Source: Sphingobacteriales bacterium 44-15
GTDB lineage: Bacteria > Bacteroidota > Bacteroidia > Chitinophagales > Chitinophagaceae
Assembly: GCA_001899685.1 (NCBI GenBank)
Contig: MKWG01000043.1
Span: forward strand, 533,498-597,497
Length of the DNA: 64,000 nt
Direction of reading: 5' to 3'
Both the position numbers and the translations under genes were made by a program. The notes under the pieces were generated by a model that made no database searches, had not been told where the DNA came from, and saw nothing but the letters and a program-made list of their open reading frames with translations. Positions 19,719 through 57,191 of the stretch are shown piece by piece. The stretch's first letter is position 1, and every line of letters begins with the position of its first letter.

Positions 19719-22700
19719 TTAGAAACCCAGTTGAATTACGAGGGAATAAGATTTTACAATGGGATACATATTGTTGGCATTGCCTTCTTTTTCAGGATCA
19801 AGTCCCCTGTAGGAAGTGATCGTTGCCAGGTTTTCAGCAGAACCGGCTATACGTAAGCTTGCAATATGTGCCCTGCGCAATAAAGACTGTGGGAGCGAAT
19901 AACCTAACTGCAGGTTTTTTACACGCAGGTAGCTCATATCATCGAGCCAGAAAGAAGATGCGATAGTATTATTGCCGCTTCCGCCGAGCCTGGGCCATGC
20001 CCCGTCCCGATTCTCCACAGACCATGGATTGTACCAGTGATCCCAGGTGGAAGCATACCTGGAGGTACCGAAGTTGACATTGTTGAATGCATTCAGCCAG
20101 AAGTCCTTCCTGCCGGTAGAACCCTGCACCATGAACGTAAGATCAATCCCTTTCCAGGAAATATAACCATTCAAAGCGCCATAAGTGGAAGGTCTTGTCT
20201 GGTTGATCTTGGGATCTGCTTTCCGGTCATTCTCATCTACCCTGCCGTCTCCGTTAATATCCTTACGCAATATATCGCCCGGCTGTGCTCCCTGGGGAGT
20301 GGCATTGTAAACATCCTGCCATGTTTGCGCAATGCCAATGGCATCGTAATAATAAAGATAATCATAAGGCATATCTATGAACACATTGTTGCCACTATAG
20401 GTAGCGCCCCGCGTCAGCAGCTCATTCCATTTCTCCAGTGTGTTTGAATTGTAGCTTCCATTCAGGCTTAAGCCATAAGTAATATCTTTTCCTATCCTGT
20501 CTTTCCATGAGATGGTAGCTTCTATCCCCCTGTTGCGCATATCGCCTATATTGGATTCAGGAGCATTGTATGCACCGGTAAGAAGAAGAGACATTTGTGA
20601 AGGGCGAAGCATTCCTGTGGTAAGCCTGTCATAATAATCCAGTTCTGCTGTCAGGCGGTTATCCAGGAATCCAAGATCCAGGCCTATATTAAGGACTGAA
20701 GTTTTTTCCCAGGTCAGCGCCTGGTTAATGATCTTCGCATTTACAAATCCTGAAGTCACTCCATTGGCTATGATATAATTGCTTGTGGCCAGTGTGGGCT
20801 GTTGTTCATAACGCCCGATACCGCTATTGTTCCCCAGTCCTCCATAAGATACACGAAGCTTACCCTGTGTAAGAAATTTACTGGTGAAGCTGTTGATAAA
20901 TCCTTCTTCCGTAAAGCGCCAGCCGAGGGCTACGGAGGGAAAGAATCCATAGCGATGCCCCGGCAGGAATTTTGAAGAACCATCCACGCGGAAGTTCCCT
21001 TCAAACAGGTACTTATTATATGCCGTATAGTTCAACCTGCCGATATAGGAGCGAAGCCCTTCCGTGCTGGAACTCCCACCCGTTGACTGTATATCGGTAA
21101 GCGCAGCATCTATCTCGTGCAATGTAGGATACAGCCTGTCATTTCTTGAACTGCCCTGGAACCTGTCGTACCAGTATTCTTCACTGTATACAAACAGTGC
21201 GCTGATATCATGATTTCTCGCAATAGTTGTATGATAATTCAGGCGCCCGTTAAGTATGGTCTTGTATCCTGTATTGGTATTGTTGCTTACGCCGGCATTT
21301 GCGCCCACATACACACGGCTGCCATACGCATTGTTTTGAAAATTAAAAGCCTGGTTAGGCATATTAGCTGTGTAAGCAAACTGGTTGTAATAGTTCAGTG
21401 AATAATCCACTCTTGCTGTCAATCCTTTCACAGGTGTCCAGTCCCAATACATGCTGGCATTAGCTTCCTGCCTGCTCTGCCGGTTCAATTGATTCTGGTA
21501 AAGCGTATAGGGATTATACGCCTGCGGGTCTTCCCCGTAGGCCATTACACCTCCGTAATGACCTGATACCGGGTCATAAGGTGTAATACCGGCAATAGCG
21601 TATTGCATGTCGAATCCCGCAGTATTTGTGGGAGCAGGATCTGTAAAGCCTTCCGCAAGCGCATAGGTATACTTCGACCAGTTACCGTTGAACCGTATTC
21701 CCGTATTCATATTGGACTTCAGCTTGTAATCAAAATTGAAGCGGGCGTTGTACTGATTATAATTATTATTGATCTGCAGTCCCTTTTCATCAAGCATGCC
21801 TACCGAAGAAAAAAAGTTCGACTTGTCGTTTCCCCCGGAAGCTGACACATTATAGTTTTGATAAGCGCCGTTCCTCAGGATAATATCCCACCAGTCGGTA
21901 TTGGGGTAGCGCAGCGGATCCACCATACCCAATGCCATCCACTGGTCAATAGTGCCGTTTTTAAAAAGCTGGTTGGCGGGCAGGGTATTGGTAGCAGACC
22001 TCACCTGCTCCAGGGTAAGCGCCCTGGGATAATCCGCCATGAAATCATAGGCTTTTCTCGGCACTTCGAGGGTCATATTGCTCGTGATGTTAAAGGCTGT
22101 TTTATCAGCGCCTCTACCGGACTTGGTGGTGATCAGTATAACACCGTTTGCCGCCCTGGATCCATATACCGAGGCGGAAGTAGCATCTTTCAAAACAGAA
22201 ATGCTTTCTATATCATTAAGATTAACCCGGTTAATATCCACATCCGGCATACCGTCTACCACCACCAGCGGCGAACTGTTGTTGGCTGTGCCCAAACCAC
22301 GGATAACGAGCTGGGCGCCGTTGGCTCCGGCCATACCGGAGTTTTGCGTAGCCGACAGGCCGGGAACCATTCCGCTCAGGGCGGAGGATACATTAGGCAA
22401 AGCGCGGCCGGTGGTTTTTTCATCAATCTTTACCATGGAAACAGCCCCCACCAAGTTTACTTTTTTCTGTCTTCCGTAGCCTACCACCACCACATCGGCC
22501 AGATCGGCAGCACCGGTGGTCTTAAGCACCACATCATAGTTCGTGCGGCTGTCCACCACCATGGTATAAGGTTCGAAACCCACAGATGAAAAAACCAGCG
22601 TGGCACCCTGCGCGGCGGAAATGCTGAAATGCCCGGAGGCATTTGTCGTGGTGCCTGTATTAGTTTTGCCAACCACTACAGAAACATCCGGCAGAGGATT

Positions 22701-22835
22701 ATCGGATTCGTCTTTAACAGTACCTGAAATCGTTTTCAGTTGTGCAGCAGAAAAAAGAGGAAGAATAAACAGTGACAAAATCAGCCAAAGAACATTCAAA
22801 CCGTTCTTTATCCGCAGATTTGACATCTTAGACAT
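19719..22835 (-). CDS. SusC/RagA-family TonB-linked outer-membrane transporter (PUL 1)
   Basis: The ATG at 22835 (MSKMSNLRIKNG) is preferred to 22913. It puts the signal peptide (LWLILSLFILPLFSAAQ) at the N-terminus and leaves the operator region non-coding. After it come a carboxypeptidase-like regulatory domain (TISGTVKDESDNPLPDVSVVVG), a TonB box region (ADVVVVGYGRQKKVNLVGAV), the plug (PLVVVDGMPDVDINRVNLNDIESISVLKDATSASVYGSRAANGVI) and a large barrel. It imports oligosaccharides released at the surface and is the first gene of the PUL 1 minus-strand operon. Confidence 0.95.
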   Translation of the reverse strand: MSKMSNLRIKNGLNVLWLILSLFILPLFSAAQLKTISGTVKDESDNPLPDVSVVVGKTNTGTTTNASGHFSISAAQGATLVFSSVGFEPYTMVVDSRTNYDVVLKTTGAADLADVVVVGYGRQKKVNLVGAVSMVKIDEKTTGRALPNVSSALSGMVPGLSATQNSGMAGANGAQLVIRGLGTANNSSPLVVVDGMPDVDINRVNLNDIESISVLKDATSASVYGSRAANGVILITTKSGRGADKTAFNITSNMTLEVPRKAYDFMADYPRALTLEQVRSATNTLPANQLFKNGTIDQWMALGMVDPLRYPNTDWWDIILRNGAYQNYNVSASGGNDKSNFFSSVGMLDEKGLQINNNYNQYNARFNFDYKLKSNMNTGIRFNGNWSKYTYALAEGFTDPAPTNTAGFDMQYAIAGITPYDPVSGHYGGVMAYGEDPQAYNPYTLYQNQLNRQSRQEANASMYWDWTPVKGLTARVDYSLNYYNQFAYTANMPNQAFNFQNNAYGSRVYVGANAGVSNNTNTGYKTILNGRLNYHTTIARNHDISALFVYSEEYWYDRFQGSSRNDRLYPTLHEIDAALTDIQSTGGSSSTEGLRSYIGRLNYTAYNKYLFEGNFRVDGSSKFLPGHRYGFFPSVALGWRFTEEGFINSFTSKFLTQGKLRVSYGGLGNNSGIGRYEQQPTLATSNYIIANGVTSGFVNAKIINQALTWEKTSVLNIGLDLGFLDNRLTAELDYYDRLTTGMLRPSQMSLLLTGAYNAPESNIGDMRNRGIEATISWKDRIGKDITYGLSLNGSYNSNTLEKWNELLTRGATYSGNNVFIDMPYDYLYYYDAIGIAQTWQDVYNATPQGAQPGDILRKDINGDGRVDENDRKADPKINQTRPSTYGALNGYISWKGIDLTFMVQGSTGRKDFWLNAFNNVNFGTSRYASTWDHWYNPWSVENRDGAWPRLGGSGNNTIASSFWLDDMSYLRVKNLQLGYSLPQSLLRRAHIASLRIAGSAENLATITSYRGLDPEKEGNANNMYPIVKSYSLVIQLGF

Positions 22836-30329: not shown

Positions 30330-31508
30330 TTAATCATAATGTTTATTCTTTACACACCTGAAGCCGGTGTGTTCCAGTCCGGTGTCCGGGCTGCTCTTCA
30401 TGCGGCGCGCTGCACGATAACCACTGCAGTAACCGTCGTTACATAAAAAGCTACCGCCCCGCAGGCTGCGTTTTAATGTGTAGGGTTCCTGCGAATCGTA
30501 TGACTCTTCAGGTCCCTGCGGGTTTACAATCAGCTTTCCTTCCAGTTGTTTATAATAGTTGCTATTGTATAAGTCGCTGCACCACTCCCATACATTGCCT
30601 GCCATATCGTATAAGCCATAGCCGTTGGGCCGGAACGATCTTACAGGAGCCAGTTTCAGGAAACCATCTTTACGGGTGTTCAGGTAGGGAAATTTTCCCT
30701 CCCAGCTATTGGCTTTGGGGGTTCCTTCATTTATATGCTCGTTGCCCCAGGGATAAATATTATTGACCAGTCCGCCGCGGGCGGCAAACTCCCATTCAGC
30801 TTCTGTTGGCAGCCGTTTGCCGGCCCATTTGCAATAGGCCTGTGCATCGTACCAGCTTACCTGCACCACCGGGTAGTTATCTTTCCCTTCGATGCTGCTG
30901 CCGGGACCTTCGGGGTGCTTCCAGTCGGCGCCTTTTACCCAGCTCCACCACTGGCTGTAATCATTTAGGTCAACAGGTCTGTTTGATTGCCTGAATACCA
31001 GTGAGGCAGCCACAAGCAGGCTGTCAGGCGGTTTAGGAGTACCTGGCGGTAATGTTTTTTTCAGCTCGTCCCAATCAGGCTTTTTTTCGGCAGTAGTTAC
31101 ATAACCTGTGGCTTCAACAAATTTCCTGAATTGAGCATTGGTCACTTCGGTGACATCAAGATAAAAAGGAGAAATCCGCACCTTATGTTTGGGATACTCA
31201 TCAGGAGCGGCCTGGTCATTATCGCCGCCCATATCAAACTCTCCGCCGGGTATCAGCACCATACCCGCCACAGTGCTGTCCCGTCCGGATGCTACCGGAG
31301 AAATATCGGCAGGGGCAAAGCGTGCAGGTGTTTTCATGCAGGAATGAATGGTATCCGGCTGGGGAGAATCAGTCCTGACCGGAGCCGGGTGTGCATTACC
31401 GGAACAGTTAAGAAGATCAGCCAGGAAAAAAAAGGAAAGGATTTTTACGGACAAAAACAGCAATTTCTTCTTTTTAAAATGCTCCCGGATATTGTGAATC
31501 TTACTCAT
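30330..31508 (-). CDS. Formylglycine-generating enzyme (sulfatase-modifying factor), exported
   Basis: This is a 392-residue protein with a hydrophobic N-terminus and a lipobox-like LLNC at Cys35, so it is probably envelope-anchored. From about residue 82 it is a complete FGE-sulfatase domain (GMVLIPGGEFDMGGDN, FYLDVTEVTNAQFRKFVEATGYVTTAE, RLPTEAEWEFAARGG, GNVWEWCSDLY). The catalytic pair is present as GGSFLCNDGYC (Cys356 and Cys361, spacing C-x4-C). This separates true FGEs from the many non-catalytic relatives. FGE converts the Cys of C-x-[PS]-x-R in sulfatases to formylglycine. Three such sulfatases are encoded from 37529. The gene is 61 bp downstream of tRNA-Cys on the same strand. Confidence 0.93.
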   Translation of the reverse strand: MSKIHNIREHFKKKKLLFLSVKILSFFFLADLLNCSGNAHPAPVRTDSPQPDTIHSCMKTPARFAPADISPVASGRDSTVAGMVLIPGGEFDMGGDNDQAAPDEYPKHKVRISPFYLDVTEVTNAQFRKFVEATGYVTTAEKKPDWDELKKTLPPGTPKPPDSLLVAASLVFRQSNRPVDLNDYSQWWSWVKGADWKHPEGPGSSIEGKDNYPVVQVSWYDAQAYCKWAGKRLPTEAEWEFAARGGLVNNIYPWGNEHINEGTPKANSWEGKFPYLNTRKDGFLKLAPVRSFRPNGYGLYDMAGNVWEWCSDLYNSNYYKQLEGKLIVNPQGPEESYDSQEPYTLKRSLRGGSFLCNDGYCSGYRAARRMKSSPDTGLEHTGFRCVKNKHYD

Positions 31509-31569
31509 TAAATAATTCTAATAGTTACGATTAATCAGATGATTATTACCCTGATGCAGGTATAAGGTA

Positions 31570-31640
31570 AGGTGCCGACTGGAATTGAACCAGTGTAACA
31601 GCTTTTGCAGAGCTGCGCCTTACCGCTCGACCACGACACC
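31570..31640 (-). tRNA. tRNA-Cys (anticodon GCA)
   Basis: On the minus strand ggtgtcg pairs with cggcacc, with one G-U pair. The anticodon stem cagct/agctg encloses ctgcaaa, giving GCA. The T-arm actgg-ttcaatt-ccagt is regular and the discriminator is U, the Cys identity base. CCA is not encoded. It lies between the predicted sRNA and the FGE gene, all on the same strand. Confidence 0.9.
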
Positions 31641-31728
31641 TTATTTTTTATCAGCACGATAAACTGCATCGAAATTTATATGGTTGTACAAAACCATTTA
31701 CCTTTTTATAGCAGGAGGAATGGTATAC

Positions 31729-31826
31729 AAAAAACAGGCCCTCATAGATATGAAGGCCGCTACCAAAACTAACTGCTTATGAAATCGTTTTTTACAATAT
31801 GGTGAGAAATATCATCTCAGCGTATC
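31729..31826 (-). ncRNA. Predicted small RNA of about 98 nt
   Basis: A complete consensus promoter on the minus strand (TTTG at 31862-31859, 19-bp spacer, TACATTTG at 31839-31832) predicts a start near 31826. A terminator follows: ggccttcata pairs with tatgagggcc (one G-U, 2-nt loop) and is followed by tgttttttg, ending near 31729. The RNA would have a small 5' hairpin (tgaga/tctca), a 40-nt unpaired A/U-rich middle and the terminator, the layout of a trans-acting sRNA. No ORF of note fits. The target is unknown. Read-through would enter tRNA-Cys and FGE. Confidence 0.6.
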
Positions 31827-31828
31827 CA

Positions 31829-31874
31829 GTGCAAATGTAAATCAATACTATTAGTCTACAAAATTTATAGACTA
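31829..31874 (-). promoter_or_regulatory. Promoter P1 with 23-bp palindrome, driving the sRNA / tRNA-Cys / FGE side
   Basis: The 46-bp block aligns without gaps to P2 (32331-32376, opposite strand) at 36 of 46 positions. It contains the palindrome tagtcta-N9-tagacta (31852-31874), which overlaps the -33 TTTG, and the -7 TACATTTG followed by cac. The same palindrome lies upstream of the plus-strand gene at 31918. Confidence 0.65.
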
Positions 31875-31889
31875 TATATTTTTTACACG

Positions 31890-31897
31890 TACATTTG
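31890..31897 (+). promoter_or_regulatory. -7 element of the divergent plus-strand gene
   Basis: TACATTTG is a full TAnnTTTG match 20 bp before the ATG at 31918. No TTTG lies at the -33 position. Instead the 23-bp palindrome ends 15 bp upstream, which would fit a factor-dependent promoter. Confidence 0.45.
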
Positions 31898-31917: not shown

Positions 31918-32235
31918 ATGCGATCCATCATTAAAAATATATTTTGGGTATTGCTCACCACAGTGCTCCCCGCAAATGGTGAGAGATCTTTTCAGGGACA
32001 CGCTGTAATATCAGGCACGGTGCTGCAGGAAAACCTGAAGCCGGTTGAAAAATGTTACCTGTACATCATCCCCGGAGAAGAAGAGGCTATCAGCGATAAA
32101 GATGGGAAATTTACTATAAACACCTGGCAGCCCTTTCCCCTGACGATTAATGCAGAGCATATCCGGTATAAAAAACAGGACATAAAAATTGACAAACCTG
32201 CAAAGGATATTATTGTGAAGCTTGAACTCAAATGA
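31918..32235 (+). CDS. Small exported protein with a carboxypeptidase-regulatory-like (transthyretin-like) domain
   Basis: This is a 105-residue protein with a hydrophobic start and then one beta-sandwich domain (AVISGTVLQENLKPVEKCYLYIIPGEEEAISDKDGKFTINTW ... LTINAEHIRYKKQDIKI). It is like the N-terminal module of SusC proteins but free-standing. It is divergent from the predicted sRNA and close to the P1 palindrome. It may be a small envelope protein of the sulfatase locus. Its function is unknown. Confidence 0.65.
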   Translation: MRSIIKNIFWVLLTTVLPANGERSFQGHAVISGTVLQENLKPVEKCYLYIIPGEEEAISDKDGKFTINTWQPFPLTINAEHIRYKKQDIKIDKPAKDIIVKLELK

Positions 32236-32330: not shown

Positions 32331-32376
32331 TTGTCTATAAATTTGATAGACTAATAACACCTATATATATTTGCAC
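32331..32376 (+). promoter_or_regulatory. Promoter P2 of the susC-susD-sulfatase operon, twin of P1
   Basis: A 23-bp palindrome (32331-32353, core gtctat/atagac) includes the -33 TTTG (32342-32345). A 20-bp spacer leads to TATATTTG (32366-32373), then cac. The block is 78% identical to P1 by direct comparison. The predicted transcript starts near 32380, about 365 nt before the susC ATG, leaving a long leader with a small ORF and a hairpin. Confidence 0.7.
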
Positions 32377-32744: not shown

Positions 32745-35700
32745 ATGAAAAAAGTACTATATATTAGTTTAGTACTAACAATAATAACACCTTTTTACAG
32801 TAAGGGACAGAATGAACCTAAACCTGTCATTAACTCTATAGTAAAAGGCCATGTGGCCGATTCAGTAAGTAAGCTTCCTTTGGCCAAAGTGTCTGTTCAG
32901 ATCAAAGGAATAACCAATGGTACCGCAAGTGATAATAACGGTGCATTCACTTTGTATACGGCTCAAAGATTTCCGTTTACCGTAGTGATAACCAGCGTTG
33001 GCTATGAAGCGAAAGAAGTAATAGTCTCAGGCTCTCCGATTAATGTATTGCTGAAGCCGGTTTCCGGCCAGTTGGAGGATGTGGTGGTAGTGGGGTACGG
33101 TACGCAAAAGCGGAGTGATCTCACCGGCGCCGTTGCGTCCATTCCTACCCAGGCATTGACCCAACAGGTCAGCTCTTTTGAACGTGTTCTTCAGGGCTCG
33201 GTATCAGGGGTACAGGTAACCCAGGTCTCCGGGCAACCGGGAGCGGCTGTAAGTATCCGCATACGGGGTGGCAATTCCATTACTGCCGGTAATGAGCCTC
33301 TGTACGTTATTGACGGGTTTCCCATTTATAACGATAATAATGATGCCAGCGCCGGCGTAGCCAGTGGCCCAAACATCAATGCGCTGGCCGGTATAAATCC
33401 AAGCGACATTGAATCAATAGATATCCTAAAGGACGCATCGGCTACCGCCATTTACGGCTCCAGGGGAGCCAACGGCGTGGTAATAGTAACTACCAAACGT
33501 GGTAAAGCCGGCAGAAATGTTGTAAGCTACGATGGTTCTTATGGCGTGCAACAGGTTAGCAATACCGTTGATGTGCTTACAGATTCCAAACAGTGGGCGT
33601 TGTTAAAGAATGATGCCCGTGTAAATGCCGGAAAAGCGCCCTACTATACCGATGAACAGATAGCGCAGCTTTCCGGGGGAACAGATTGGCAAAGCGCCGC
33701 CTTTAGAACCGCTCCTGCTCAAAATCATCAGCTAACGATATCGGGAGGCGATGATAAAACCCATTATGCTGTTTCAGGAAATTACTTTAAACAGGAAGGC
33801 GTATTGCTGAACACGAATTTTGAGCGTTTTTCCGGCCGTTTAAATTTTGACCGCCAGGTATCATCTGCCTTCAAAGTAAGCGCCAATTTTACGGCAAGCA
33901 AAACAAGCGCCAAAATAGCCGACAACAGTCTTGTGAGCTTTTTACTGCTAATGCCTCCAACCGTATCCATAAGAGATGCTAACGGTGAATATACCTATCA
34001 GAGCGAGTTTGAAACACCATTAGGTAACCCTATTGCCACTCTGGCAGAAGAAACCAATCAAAGCAACACCAACAGGATATTAGGCAATGTATTCGGAGAA
34101 TACCAGATCATAGACGGCCTCACAGCCAAAGTTTCCATTGGGGCGGATATTATTAATAATAAAGAGAACCGGTATATCCCGACTACGGTATACCAGGGCG
34201 CCAACACCAATCAAACCGGGACGGCAGCCGTTGGAGCCAAGGTAGCATCGTCATGGCTTAATGAAAACACTTTAACATATATAAAGAAGCTTGGAGAAAA
34301 TCATCTCCTTAATGCCGTGGTAGGTTTCACACAGCAGGCATTCCGGGCCGAATATGTTACTGCCGGTTCACAAGGCTTTAGCACAGAGCAGTTAACTTAT
34401 AATGACCTTGGCGCCGGTGTTGTTTACACGAAACCCACTTCAGGCTCATCCGAGTGGGCGTTGAAATCATTCCTTGGAAGGGTTAACTATACGCTTAATG
34501 ATAAATATTTATTTACCATTACTGCCCGTGCAGATGGCTCATCCCGGTTTGGGGAGGATCATAAATGGGGCTATTTTCCATCAGCAGCTTTTGCCTGGAA
34601 TCTCAGTAAAGAAAACTTCATAAAACTGCCTGAAGCTGTTAACAGTTTAAAACTTCGCATAAGTGCGGGATTGACAGGCAACCAGGAGATCGGGGTATAC
34701 CAGTCGTTAGCTACACTTGCAAATAACAACTATTTTTTTGGAGGCAATGCAGTGATCGGCTACTCTCCTAACCGTATTGGCAACTCCGGTTTGGGCTGGG
34801 AAACTACGGCGCAATATGATGCAGGTATTGATATTTCTCTGTTCAATAATCGTGTTACGCTAACGGTAGACGGATACTACAAAAAGACCACAGACCTATT
34901 GCTGGATGTGCCTCTCCCCTATACTACAGGGCAGGCCACCGCCTTACAAAACTATGGAACAGTCTCCAACAAAGGACTGGAATTTGCGCTGAATACCCGG
35001 AATATCCGCGGGGTTTTTAACTGGAATTCAGGACTGGTTTTGTCATTGAACCGAAACAGGATACTGAGCCTGGGCGATGGTGTTGAAAATATTATTTCGG
35101 GTGTGAGCATTGCCCAGGTTGGCCAGCCGTTAGGCTCATTTTATGGTTTAAAAACCAATGGGATCTTCCAACTGACTGATGACATTGCCCACCTGCCGGT
35201 ATATTTAACCAAAAATCAGCCCGGCGACCAACGTTACATAGACAAAGATGGCGACGGTACTATTACCGCTACAGGCGACCGTTTTCTTATAGGCAATGCC
35301 CAACCCGGGTTCCTCGGAGGGTTTACCAATAATTTTTCATACAGGAGTTTTGACCTGAATATCTTTTTCCAGGGGTCGTACGGCAGCAGGATATTTAACC
35401 AGAATAAACAGCAGCTGGAAATATTGAGCGGGCAGCAAAATGCATCGGTAACCGCTTTGGACCGGTGGACACCGCAAAACCAGGAGAATGTAATACCCCG
35501 GGCTTATGAAGATCCGGCGGCAGTAAATTCAGACCGTTATATTGAAGACGGCTCTTACCTGCGCCTGAAAACCCTGGTGCTCGGTTATACGCTTCCATTA
35601 AGATTTGTGTCAAGAGCCTATGATACCAGGATCCGGTTTTATTTCTCTGCGCAAAACCTGGTAACCTGGACCAAGTATACCGGTTACGACCCCGAGGTAA

Positions 35701-35795
35701 GCAGGAACGGTCAAAGCACATTGACACAGGGCATTGACTATGCAGTTTACCCCAATGCTAAATTATTTACGGGAGGCGTAAATATCACATTTTAA
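32745..35795 (+). CDS. SusC/RagA-family TonB-linked transporter (sulfatase locus)
   Basis: The start at 32745 (MKKVLYISLVLTIITPFYSKGQ) gives a signal peptide; the track's longer frame runs through the leader hairpin and is rejected. The domain order is: carboxypeptidase-like module (VKGHVADSVSKLPLAKVSVQIKG), TonB box area (LEDVVVVGYGTQKRSDLTGAV), plug (NEPLYVIDGFPIYND ... IDILKDASATAIYGSRGANGVV) and barrel. The mature protein is about 1000 residues. It is the first large gene of the P2 operon and likely imports a sulfated glycan or other organosulfate processed by the downstream sulfatases. Confidence 0.95.
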   Translation: MKKVLYISLVLTIITPFYSKGQNEPKPVINSIVKGHVADSVSKLPLAKVSVQIKGITNGTASDNNGAFTLYTAQRFPFTVVITSVGYEAKEVIVSGSPINVLLKPVSGQLEDVVVVGYGTQKRSDLTGAVASIPTQALTQQVSSFERVLQGSVSGVQVTQVSGQPGAAVSIRIRGGNSITAGNEPLYVIDGFPIYNDNNDASAGVASGPNINALAGINPSDIESIDILKDASATAIYGSRGANGVVIVTTKRGKAGRNVVSYDGSYGVQQVSNTVDVLTDSKQWALLKNDARVNAGKAPYYTDEQIAQLSGGTDWQSAAFRTAPAQNHQLTISGGDDKTHYAVSGNYFKQEGVLLNTNFERFSGRLNFDRQVSSAFKVSANFTASKTSAKIADNSLVSFLLLMPPTVSIRDANGEYTYQSEFETPLGNPIATLAEETNQSNTNRILGNVFGEYQIIDGLTAKVSIGADIINNKENRYIPTTVYQGANTNQTGTAAVGAKVASSWLNENTLTYIKKLGENHLLNAVVGFTQQAFRAEYVTAGSQGFSTEQLTYNDLGAGVVYTKPTSGSSEWALKSFLGRVNYTLNDKYLFTITARADGSSRFGEDHKWGYFPSAAFAWNLSKENFIKLPEAVNSLKLRISAGLTGNQEIGVYQSLATLANNNYFFGGNAVIGYSPNRIGNSGLGWETTAQYDAGIDISLFNNRVTLTVDGYYKKTTDLLLDVPLPYTTGQATALQNYGTVSNKGLEFALNTRNIRGVFNWNSGLVLSLNRNRILSLGDGVENIISGVSIAQVGQPLGSFYGLKTNGIFQLTDDIAHLPVYLTKNQPGDQRYIDKDGDGTITATGDRFLIGNAQPGFLGGFTNNFSYRSFDLNIFFQGSYGSRIFNQNKQQLEILSGQQNASVTALDRWTPQNQENVIPRAYEDPAAVNSDRYIEDGSYLRLKTLVLGYTLPLRFVSRAYDTRIRFYFSAQNLVTWTKYTGYDPEVSRNGQSTLTQGIDYAVYPNAKLFTGGVNITF

Positions 35796-53831: not shown

Positions 53832-56800
53832 TTAGAAATTAATTTTCACACCTCCTGTCACAGCTTTTGTAGCAGGATAGTTCCCACGATCCCATCCGTT
53901 TATGGTCGCACTTTGCCATGCCGCTTCCGGATCATAACCGGAATACTTCGTAATGGTTATAAAATTCTGTGCACTGATATAAAGCTCCAGCGAAGCTATC
54001 TTCATGCGGTTGGTAAAGGAAACCGGGACATTGTATGACAGCGTAATATCTCTCAAGCGGACATAGGAGCCATTTTCCACCCACAGGCTGTTGGCATAAT
54101 CACGAATATCATTCCCGCTGTTAGCGCTCGGCTTATCAAACATATTTGTACCTTTTCCTGCCTGCCACCGGTTGTCATAAGCTTCCTGAGTAGGCGTCCA
54201 TTTACCGTTGAGTGTGATATTATATTTCCTGAATTCATTAGCAATATCATTACCATAAGAACCCACAAACAAAAAAGATAAACCAAAGTTTTTATAAGAG
54301 AAGCTATTTCCAAATCCAAAAGTGAACTTAGGTTCAAAATGGGTGAGCACAATCCTGTCATTACCATCTACCACGCCGTTGCCGTCTGTATCCTGGAATT
54401 TATAGTTGCCGGCTTTTTTTGTCGGTTCACCATTAGCTACTGCATCAGCATCACTTTGGTATACGCCTATCACTTTATATCCATACAATTGCTGCATAGA
54501 GTTACCTATCAGCATAGGGAACCAGTTTCCCCCGGTACCTACTTCCTTGTAGGTAATGGGATTACCCAATGCATCTTTTCCGAGATCAATCAACCGGGTC
54601 TTATTACTGGTAAGGTTGAATGTGGAGTTCCAATTCAAACCATTACCGGTAAGTATTGCCCCGTTCAGCAAAAATTCAAAACCTCTGTTACCGGTTTCGC
54701 CCACATTTTGCAATACACTTCCGAAGCCTGTATTAGGCGGCAGAGTTACATCAAGCAGCAGATCAGTGGTTTTTTTGCTGTAATAGTCTGCCGTAAGTTG
54801 CAATCGCTCATTAAATAACCCCAGGTCAAGCCCTATATCAAACTGGCTGGTGGTTTCCCATCGCAGGGATTTATTTTCCAGGCGGCTTGAATAATAGGTT
54901 GTCGTAGCAGTATTGTTAAACGTAACGCTGGTCGTGGATAGTTGCCCCAGTGTCTGGTAAGGTGAAATAGCCTGGTTACCCGATTTGCCATAGCTCACCC
55001 TGAGTTTGAGATTTGAAACAGCCCTAGCATTTTCCATAAATGACTCCTTTGAGATCCTCCATGCTACAGCCCCTGAAGGGAAAAATGCGTATTTATTGTT
55101 CTCGCTGAATTTTGATGAGCCATCATACCTGCCGGTCAGTGTGAGCAGGTATTTCCCGTCGTAAGCATAGTTGATACGCCCGAGATAAGATAATAATTTC
55201 GAATCGGAATAAGTGGAATTAGTATTAGACGGTTTCACACTGGCTGCTGCCAGATTATTATCCAGGTAGATATCAGTAAGGAATCCGGAAAAAGTACCGC
55301 TATTCAAACCCTCTGATCTGTTTTGCTGATAAGTAATCCCGGCCAGGGCGTCGATATTATGTTTACCTAATTGCTTCTTATAGGTGAGGAGGTTTTCATT
55401 AACAAATGCTGAGGTATTACCATAATTCTTATACGCCCCTCCATTGACATATAGACTCAGAGTGCTCGGCGCATAATAGTCTGATTTGTTCCAGCTATTA
55501 TCCACACCGGCGCTAAGTCTTACTTTGAGATCAGAAGTTATAGCATAAGTCAGCACGGCATTTCCTATCACCCTGAAAGAGCTGTTAGGCCGATATTCTT
55601 CTTTTGACATGGCATAGGGATTGGTTTGCCCCCAGGACACACCGGTAAAGATGGTATATTTCCCAGTGGCATCATATACGCCTTGTGTAGGCGGCATGAC
55701 CATTGTGGTAAAAGGAACACCTCCTCCACCATCGGCATTGAAATAATTATTCTGAAAATAGTCGGACTGCTGTAAAGAGAGGCTAATATTCGCTACAAGC
55801 TTTTCGCTGATCTTCTGATCAAGATTCCCCCGGAAAGAAAAACGCTTAAACTTAGAGTTTTGTATAATCCCATCCTGATCGTAGTAGCCAACTGAAGTAT
55901 AGAATTTTGTACCGGCAGTACCACCCGACAATGAAATATCATGATTTTGCACCGGTGCGCTCCGGTACACAAGATCCTGCCAGTCTGTGCCTTTTCCTTT
56001 GAGCGAATCAATTTGTGCATCCGTCCATACCGCAGGCATTCCGTCATTTGCAGCTACCTCATTTTGCAGTGTGGCAAATTCCTGCGCATTAATAAGATCC
56101 AGTTTCTTTCTCAGCGACTGTACACCATAATAACCGCCGTAAGATACCCTTACTTTCCCTTCATTCCCCTTTTTGGTGGTGATCATAATGACGCCGTTCG
56201 CACCTCTTGATCCGTATATAGCCGTTGAGGAAGCATCCTTTAATACTTCCACTGTTTCTATATCGTTGGGATTAAGCTGGGCGGTCAAACCATCCAAAGG
56301 AAGACCATCAACTACGTACAAAGGATCATTGCCTGCCTGTATAGAATTCGTACCCCGGATTTTTATGGATACTCCCTCTCCTGGCTGACCTGAACGTTGT
56401 ATCACCTGCACTCCCGAGGCCTGTCCCTGGAGGGCTCCGGCTACATTAGAGACGCCTTTTACCTGTGTAACTTTCTCGGCCGATACCGAGGATACAGCGC
56501 CGGTGAGATCGGACTTTTTTACCGATCCGTAGGCAATTACCACGACTTCGTCTGTCTGCTTATCTTCAGATTTAAGAACAATATTCAAATCTGCAGTTCC
56601 TTCTGCAACTACCTCCCGGGTAATATATCCTACAAATGAGATTATCAATGTACCCCTGTTGCCAGGAATATTAAGCGTAAATCTGCCATTTATATCCGTA
56701 CTTGTGCCCGTATTCGACCCTTTCAGCCTGACCGAAGCACCGGCAAGGGGCTCTCCGGCAGTGTTGCCGACTCGTCCCCGTACCTGGATGGTCATTTCTG

Positions 56801-57191
56801 CAGACGGCTGTAGCGGGGAAGGAACATCAATCTTTTTGGCTGATATTACTACAGTCTGAGCCACAATGGAATATTCAACGGGAATATTCTGGAAACACTG
56901 ATCCAATATTTGGCGGAGAGTGGCATTTTTAACGGAAAGATTGACCCTGGGCACATCACGCAGCAAAGCAGTTTTATAGAAGAAGCTGTACCCTGTTTGC
57001 TTCCTGATTTCTTTGAGCACTTTTGGGATTGTAGTGTTTTCTACAGAGAGTGTTATATTCTGCGAAAAGCCCGTTGCACTTACATGCAGGCATAAAGCAA
57101 ACAATATAATCGCAGTTAATTTCATAATCCTTAGGATTAGTACAGGTGGAAGCATCCGCTTGCCCCACTTGTGGGCATCGTTAAATTGCAT
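53832..57191 (-). CDS. SusC/RagA-family transporter with STN signalling domain (PUL 3)
   Basis: This is a 1119-residue TonB-dependent transporter. The N-terminus has a long leader before the hydrophobic core (MKLTAIILFALCLHVSATGFSQ). A secretin/TonB short N-terminal (STN) domain follows (TTIPKVLKEIRKQTGYSFFY ... NATLRQILDQCFQNIPVEYSIVAQTVVIS). Next come a carboxypeptidase-like module, the TonB box region (DEVVVIAYGSVKKSDLTGAV), plug and barrel. The STN domain signals to a FecR-type anti-sigma factor, and the FecR and ECF sigma genes lie directly upstream. It would import the oligosaccharides worked on by the GH29-like and beta-helix proteins. Confidence 0.95.
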   Translation of the reverse strand: MQFNDAHKWGKRMLPPVLILRIMKLTAIILFALCLHVSATGFSQNITLSVENTTIPKVLKEIRKQTGYSFFYKTALLRDVPRVNLSVKNATLRQILDQCFQNIPVEYSIVAQTVVISAKKIDVPSPLQPSAEMTIQVRGRVGNTAGEPLAGASVRLKGSNTGTSTDINGRFTLNIPGNRGTLIISFVGYITREVVAEGTADLNIVLKSEDKQTDEVVVIAYGSVKKSDLTGAVSSVSAEKVTQVKGVSNVAGALQGQASGVQVIQRSGQPGEGVSIKIRGTNSIQAGNDPLYVVDGLPLDGLTAQLNPNDIETVEVLKDASSTAIYGSRGANGVIMITTKKGNEGKVRVSYGGYYGVQSLRKKLDLINAQEFATLQNEVAANDGMPAVWTDAQIDSLKGKGTDWQDLVYRSAPVQNHDISLSGGTAGTKFYTSVGYYDQDGIIQNSKFKRFSFRGNLDQKISEKLVANISLSLQQSDYFQNNYFNADGGGGVPFTTMVMPPTQGVYDATGKYTIFTGVSWGQTNPYAMSKEEYRPNSSFRVIGNAVLTYAITSDLKVRLSAGVDNSWNKSDYYAPSTLSLYVNGGAYKNYGNTSAFVNENLLTYKKQLGKHNIDALAGITYQQNRSEGLNSGTFSGFLTDIYLDNNLAAASVKPSNTNSTYSDSKLLSYLGRINYAYDGKYLLTLTGRYDGSSKFSENNKYAFFPSGAVAWRISKESFMENARAVSNLKLRVSYGKSGNQAISPYQTLGQLSTTSVTFNNTATTTYYSSRLENKSLRWETTSQFDIGLDLGLFNERLQLTADYYSKKTTDLLLDVTLPPNTGFGSVLQNVGETGNRGFEFLLNGAILTGNGLNWNSTFNLTSNKTRLIDLGKDALGNPITYKEVGTGGNWFPMLIGNSMQQLYGYKVIGVYQSDADAVANGEPTKKAGNYKFQDTDGNGVVDGNDRIVLTHFEPKFTFGFGNSFSYKNFGLSFLFVGSYGNDIANEFRKYNITLNGKWTPTQEAYDNRWQAGKGTNMFDKPSANSGNDIRDYANSLWVENGSYVRLRDITLSYNVPVSFTNRMKIASLELYISAQNFITITKYSGYDPEAAWQSATINGWDRGNYPATKAVTGGVKINF

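Follow-up and report, generated by a model that had tools for sequence, protein, structure and literature searches.

The window, by which we mean the whole 64,000-nt stretch of Sphingobacteriales bacterium 44-15 DNA that was analysed, carries a predicted small RNA (sRNA) flanked by a palindromic operator and an accessory tRNA-Cys gene, together with SusC genes (Table 1). The preliminary description had placed the sRNA between the site of a sulfatase regulator and tRNA-Cys, with a promoter made of TTTG, a 19-bp spacing and a -7 element. The siting held and the sequence confirms the promoter; the window copy has TTTG-19-TACATTTG plus the sulfatase-regulon operator. The claimed minus-strand RNA of about 98 nt with an intrinsic terminator also held, the terminator being found by a scan. 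Its transcription is predicted to start near 31826, and the minus-strand T-run terminates at 31729. The terminator stem had been described as 10 bp with one G-U pair; it comprises 9 pairs, one G-U among them, so that the description failed in length only. The promoter design claimed to be common with the sulfatase operon held as well, the same palindromic operator preceding both. The fold energy of the window sRNA is unremarkable by itself (z -1.8) and its stability alone is not convincing; the strong evidence for the sRNA is comparative.

Table 1. Coordinates of the features discussed, as positions within the window.
Feature	Position	Strand	Basis and remarks
Predicted sRNA, ~98 nt	31729..31826	-	Placement of promoter and terminator; family model R1, 66.4 bits, E 1.3e-16
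-33 element TTTG	31859..31862 (read 31862-31859)	-	Sequence; inside the operator palindrome; 19 nt to the -7 element
-7 element TACATTTG	31832..31839 (read 31839-31832)	-	Sequence
Terminator hairpin GGCCTTCATATCTATGAGGGCC, 9 bp, then TGTTTTTT	31737..31758	-	Terminator scan; T-run to 31729
Near-invariant seed TCATAAGCAGTTAGTTTTGGT	31762..31782	-	19 columns invariant in 35 diverse copies; predicted pairing with SusC start regions
Copy-specific 5' part of the sRNA, weak hairpin	31783..31826	-	Unconserved among the other copies; no SusC signal
Palindromic operator AGTCTATAAATTTTGTAGACT	31852..31874	.	Between the sRNA (-) and a 105-aa gene (+); same as that of the sulfatase/SusC operon
Second operator copy	32331..32353	+	Precedes the SusC/SusD/sulfatase operon
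Accessory tRNA-Cys, the genome's second	31569..31641	-	Immediately downstream of the sRNA
SusC of the sulfatase operon	32745..35795	+	Start pairs poorly with the seed; predicted to be spared
SusC, predicted target	19719..22835	-	-20.2 kcal/mol; site CAAAACGATTGCTTATG over the start codon
SusC, predicted target	53832..57125	-	-14.7 kcal/mol; starts ATG AAA TTA ACT GCG (MKLTA)

The operator palindrome occurs twice in the window, where 0 sites are expected by chance. The sulfur-operator regulon of this genus was defined by a TAnnTTTG promoter with the palindrome AGTCTA-N9-TAGACT lying just before it, and the window copy fits this definition. Further operator sites adjoin sulfatases, a PhyH dioxygenase and TonB receptors; that sulfur is the signal is inferred from the genes at the operator sites. 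The operator works in both directions: another TACATTTG (31890-31897, plus strand) drives a 105-aa CarboxypepD_reg-like protein (31918-32235, plus strand). Genome G007 retains the 105-aa gene with the operator, and its divergent neighbour there is unrelated. An FGE-sulfatase gene directly behind the operator in G007 was considered and rejected, the protein there being unrelated.

The other tRNA-Cys of the same genome (G000:C15:11927) is 77% alike to the accessory one. In genome G008 the operator and a TAAATTTG promoter run straight into the accessory tRNA-Cys; in the present genome and in G006 the sRNA intervenes between the two. The linkage to the operator (31569-31641, minus strand; L400:1439-1574; L397) raises the possibility that the accessory tRNA-Cys is a sulfur-regulated gene. 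In G006 (L385:5914-6570) the sRNA forms the 3'UTR of a 93-aa ORF that has no Pfam match; the same operator controls it, and tRNA-Cys follows immediately.

The seed-and-terminator family

A search with the sRNA region showed that the 3' half of the sRNA recurs, several times per genome, in many genomes of the same genus and family. The aligned copies share TCATAAGCAGTTAGTTTTGG nearly unchanged, and the hairpin below it varies widely in sequence. When copies found without an exact-seed requirement were used as a control, the seed positions were mostly 0.93-1.0 conserved, against about 0.4 outside. The covariance search in Chitinophagaceae relatives that the preliminary description had called for found the family, with a terminator hairpin that covaries: compensatory changes occur at 9/9 pairs and pairing is kept in 99.4% of cells. 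Covariation scores 0.81, against 0.24 after shuffling and no more than 0.28 on sliding. The check on conservation was met by the 3' half, which recurs in the same genome and in related ones; the 5' part of the window sRNA is not conserved.

The covariance model, R1, identifies 8 family copies in the present genome and up to 15 matches per genome in relatives. Matches occur in 119/146 Chitinophagaceae genomes and 83/100 genera, counts which take in weak matches, the cut-off being E up to 0.01. In a phylum sample of 395 genomes strong R1 matches are restricted to Chitinophagaceae, and almost every named contig with the seed in the genome collection comes from Chitinophagaceae/Chitinophagales. 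An Rfam search at gathering and permissive thresholds matched no family to the window sRNA, only tRNAs scoring. The seed family has no match in the phage and plasmid GenBank collections, and no Chitinophaga sRNA family of this type is described in the literature searched. The earlier statement that the RNA belongs to no known family therefore holds for Rfam, yet the RNA is not an orphan. It is probably one member of an undescribed multicopy family of paralogous sRNAs found in most Chitinophagaceae. That the window sRNA is real is very well supported by the comparison, although this is inferred from sequence alone, and expression, sulfur induction and repression are not shown.

The family copies are read from differing promoters: sigma-54-like, ECF-like, operator-linked and within 3'UTRs. 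TGGCA-N4-6-TTTG lies directly upstream of 50/148 cellular copies, versus 0.3 expected, indicating that many copies are stand-alone transcripts. In the copies inspected, these sites retain the sigma-54 promoter spacing GG-N10-GC/GA. Several same-genus copies instead carry TTAACA...GCGTC, ECF-like in look (13 versus 4.4 expected); this assignment is the weaker of the two claims and remains only a possibility. One copy in the present genome is situated in a 3'UTR. The operator- and tRNA-Cys-linked layout is found in just 2/155 unique copies. Besides the present genome only G006 has it, so the sulfur branch was recruited recently.

The seed is also carried by 26 viral contigs (L213-L238), together with a hairpin peculiar to phages. 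There it mostly lies about 10 nt past a gene's stop codon, 17/23 copies having an ORF that ends within 150 nt. The viral copies lack the cellular promoter types, and their use by phage against SusC receptors is conceivable.

Predicted pairing of the seed with SusC start regions

The seed falls within what the preliminary description had called a long unpaired middle, and in the predicted ensemble of the window copy it is only partly unpaired (mean 0.56). SusC mRNAs carry sequence complementary to it in their start regions; AAACTAACTGC, for instance, corresponds to codons 2-5 of MKLTA-type SusC. Reverse-complemented, the seed reads CCAAAACTAACTGCTTATGA, and several SusC genes start ATG AAA CTA ACT GC.

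Duplex energies of the seed with gene starts in the present genome (about 1.8 Mb, 1258 genes, SusC n=50) separate SusC from other genes with an AUC of 0.773, and 60 dinucleotide-shuffled seeds give a mean of 0.440 (sd 0.049, max 0.565). No enrichment of seed complementarity was found among the non-SusC genes of this test. For 30 SusC from three other genomes the mean energy is -14.5 versus -10.6±0.75 kcal/mol, with 0/400 shuffles as low. SusC from four family-bearing genomes give z -6.0, whereas SusC from genomes without the family give no signal (z -0.9 and -0.4), in a control that is small (20 SusC). The seed core suffices for the signal, which survives when the anti-AUG part is held fixed; the anti-AUG part alone fails to account for it. 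In the same test the reversed seed, the complement and the seed of the Bacteroides FopS family (see below) gave no SusC signal, nor did the 5' half of the window RNA itself (z -0.01).

The pairing sites are scattered from about -20 to +14 around the start codon, and therefore do not represent one inherited match. Seed-matching codons are favoured in MKLT starts, ACT in 8/15 versus a background of 0.19 and CTA in 5/16 versus 0.04, in a small sample. The SusC genes are mutually related, so that the observations are not fully independent, and start codons in the target tests were called mechanically. No target exactly complementary to the seed as a 24-mer exists; the only matches, 7 in number, are the sRNA genes. 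Seed complementarity is concentrated at SusC start codons, and only where the family is present, as far as can be read from sequence alone.

The SusC of the sulfatase operon pairs at only -7.2 kcal/mol (-8.8 with the window-specific seed) and is predicted to be spared because its start lacks a good seed site. The other operator-linked receptors mostly pair weakly too, at -7 to -13, with one at -15. PUL and sulfur genes had been suggested as targets; SusC importer mRNAs in general are predicted, not sulfur genes.

Proposed action and alternative explanations

Bacteroidota take up nutrients mainly through SusC importers. In this family the covarying intrinsic terminator is immediately preceded by a near-invariant seed, a unit that recurs several times per genome behind differing promoters, and we propose that the seed TCATAAGCAGUUAGUUUUGGU pairs in trans with SusC start regions, whereby SusC translation would be repressed. 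During sulfur scavenging the window sRNA would be made alongside the sulfatase operon through the common operator, and would lower the synthesis of other SusC importers. The pairing potential and the common operator are shown; transcription, induction and repression of the window copy are inferred. The co-induced trans-acting sRNA with an unpaired targeting segment that had been claimed is thus supported as the best reading, and we regard the window feature as a likely member of a trans-acting anti-SusC family with a putative FopS-like action. Exact seeds, targets and a covariance model are now given, and we propose a specific way in which sulfur scavenging could be tied to the global control of uptake.

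A bolder reading, offered only as a possibility, is a Chitinophagaceae-wide hub in which one anti-SusC seed has been duplicated behind many promoters. Each stress or nutrient signal would then lower SusC while sparing the needed importer, and phages would use a 3'UTR seed against SusC receptors, excluding competitors.

Among the alternatives, common descent with FopS survives best. In Bacteroides thetaiotaomicron, translation of susC is repressed by FopS, an sRNA family with 14 members (PMC11697453); the present family could be a true member by common descent with a diverged seed. The same layout, multiple copies, phage copies and SusC targets speak for it, as does an alignment of the FopS R1' seed with the Chitinophagaceae seed that scores 23 versus 15.5±2.9, a weak similarity reached by 111/5000 shuffles. 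Against it, model R1 does not recognise FopS; the R1' pattern, with 2 mismatches allowed, is absent from the present genome and from the sampled Chitinophagaceae genomes; and R1' has no complementarity to Chitinophagaceae SusC starts. The layout may also be convergent, because both families must pair with start codons. On balance we lean against common descent without regarding it as settled; that the Chitinophagaceae family works like FopS is likely by analogy.

The second alternative is a conserved terminator cassette, in which the 20-mer and hairpin form a termination or RNA 3'-end signal for a protein and have no trans targets. The seed is always joined to an intrinsic terminator, and the viral copies after stop codons and the 3'UTR copy of the present genome could be mere terminators. 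The cassette, however, leaves unexplained both the SusC-specific complementarity and its absence in family-less genomes, and it does not fit the excess of sigma-54-like promoters given above. We consider it unlikely.

Also improbable is a mainly cis role of the window copy, as a leader or attenuator of a sulfur-operator transcript with read-through into tRNA-Cys and the FGE-sulfatase gene (30330-31508). The operator, sRNA, tRNA-Cys and FGE gene are consecutive on one strand, and in G008 the accessory tRNA-Cys is under direct control of this operator. Yet the window seed is identical to that of copies without such neighbours, and the window terminator is strong.

A chance promoter and terminator without RNA function would agree with the fold z-score and with the sites that consensus scans yield by chance, but it is refuted for the family by seed invariance, hairpin covariation and multicopy distribution, and is all but excluded. 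A trans-acting anti-SusC sRNA thus remains our preferred reading.

Comparison with known small RNAs

RybB, MicA and Qrr of Gammaproteobacteria are sigma-E- or sigma-54-controlled sRNAs that repress porins or occur in multiple copies. The anti-SusC family resembles them in the repression of outer-membrane proteins, here predicted, or in having several copies read from alternative sigma factor promoters; they differ in being Hfq-dependent and unrelated in sequence and phylum. Rfp18 of Flavobacterium psychrophilum (PMC9723704) is likewise a conserved Bacteroidota sRNA with predicted trans targets, but is strongly structured, pairs through a stem-loop and has metalloprotease targets. GibS of B. 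thetaiotaomicron (PMC7366714) is a Bacteroidota sRNA with an exposed 5' seed that represses metabolic mRNAs at start codons; unlike the present family it is single copy, about 145 nt long, and has two seeds and other targets.

The closest system is FopS. Both families consist of multicopy paralogous short sRNAs. Both have a U-rich anti-start stretch (UUUUUCAU), then about 20 nt, then GGUU and a terminator hairpin, and the seed of each can pair with susC translation initiation regions, a property that is computational for the Chitinophagaceae family. They differ in seed (R1' is GTGTTTTTCATAGTATTAGATTTAAGGTTAACAAA), in published range, FopS being described as confined to Bacteroidaceae, and in promoters: those of FopS are of the canonical primary type (PMC11697453), whereas not all Chitinophagaceae copies have primary-sigma promoters. 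The published R1' consensus, used to fetch FopS loci, located them in two other families of the class, which we take to be Bacteroidaceae and a relative, and in 29 IMG/VR viral contigs. FopS and the Chitinophagaceae RNAs are thus alike in having anti-SusC seeds carried by phages. Some of the FopS-type RNAs in viral contigs (L475-L532) lie directly after tRNA genes or stop codons.

FopS is bound and antagonised by the RRM protein RbpB (PMC11697453). The present genome encodes four RRM_1 (RbpB-like) proteins (G000:C13:32260, C3:183961, C26:107213 and C31:110175), which may be sRNA partners, although there are no binding data.

In the literature searched, control of SusC by multicopy sRNAs is described in gut Bacteroides only. 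That environmental Chitinophagaceae have a second family, distinct in sequence yet alike in layout, suggests that RNAs of this multicopy anti-SusC kind are perhaps a general layer of regulation in the phylum.
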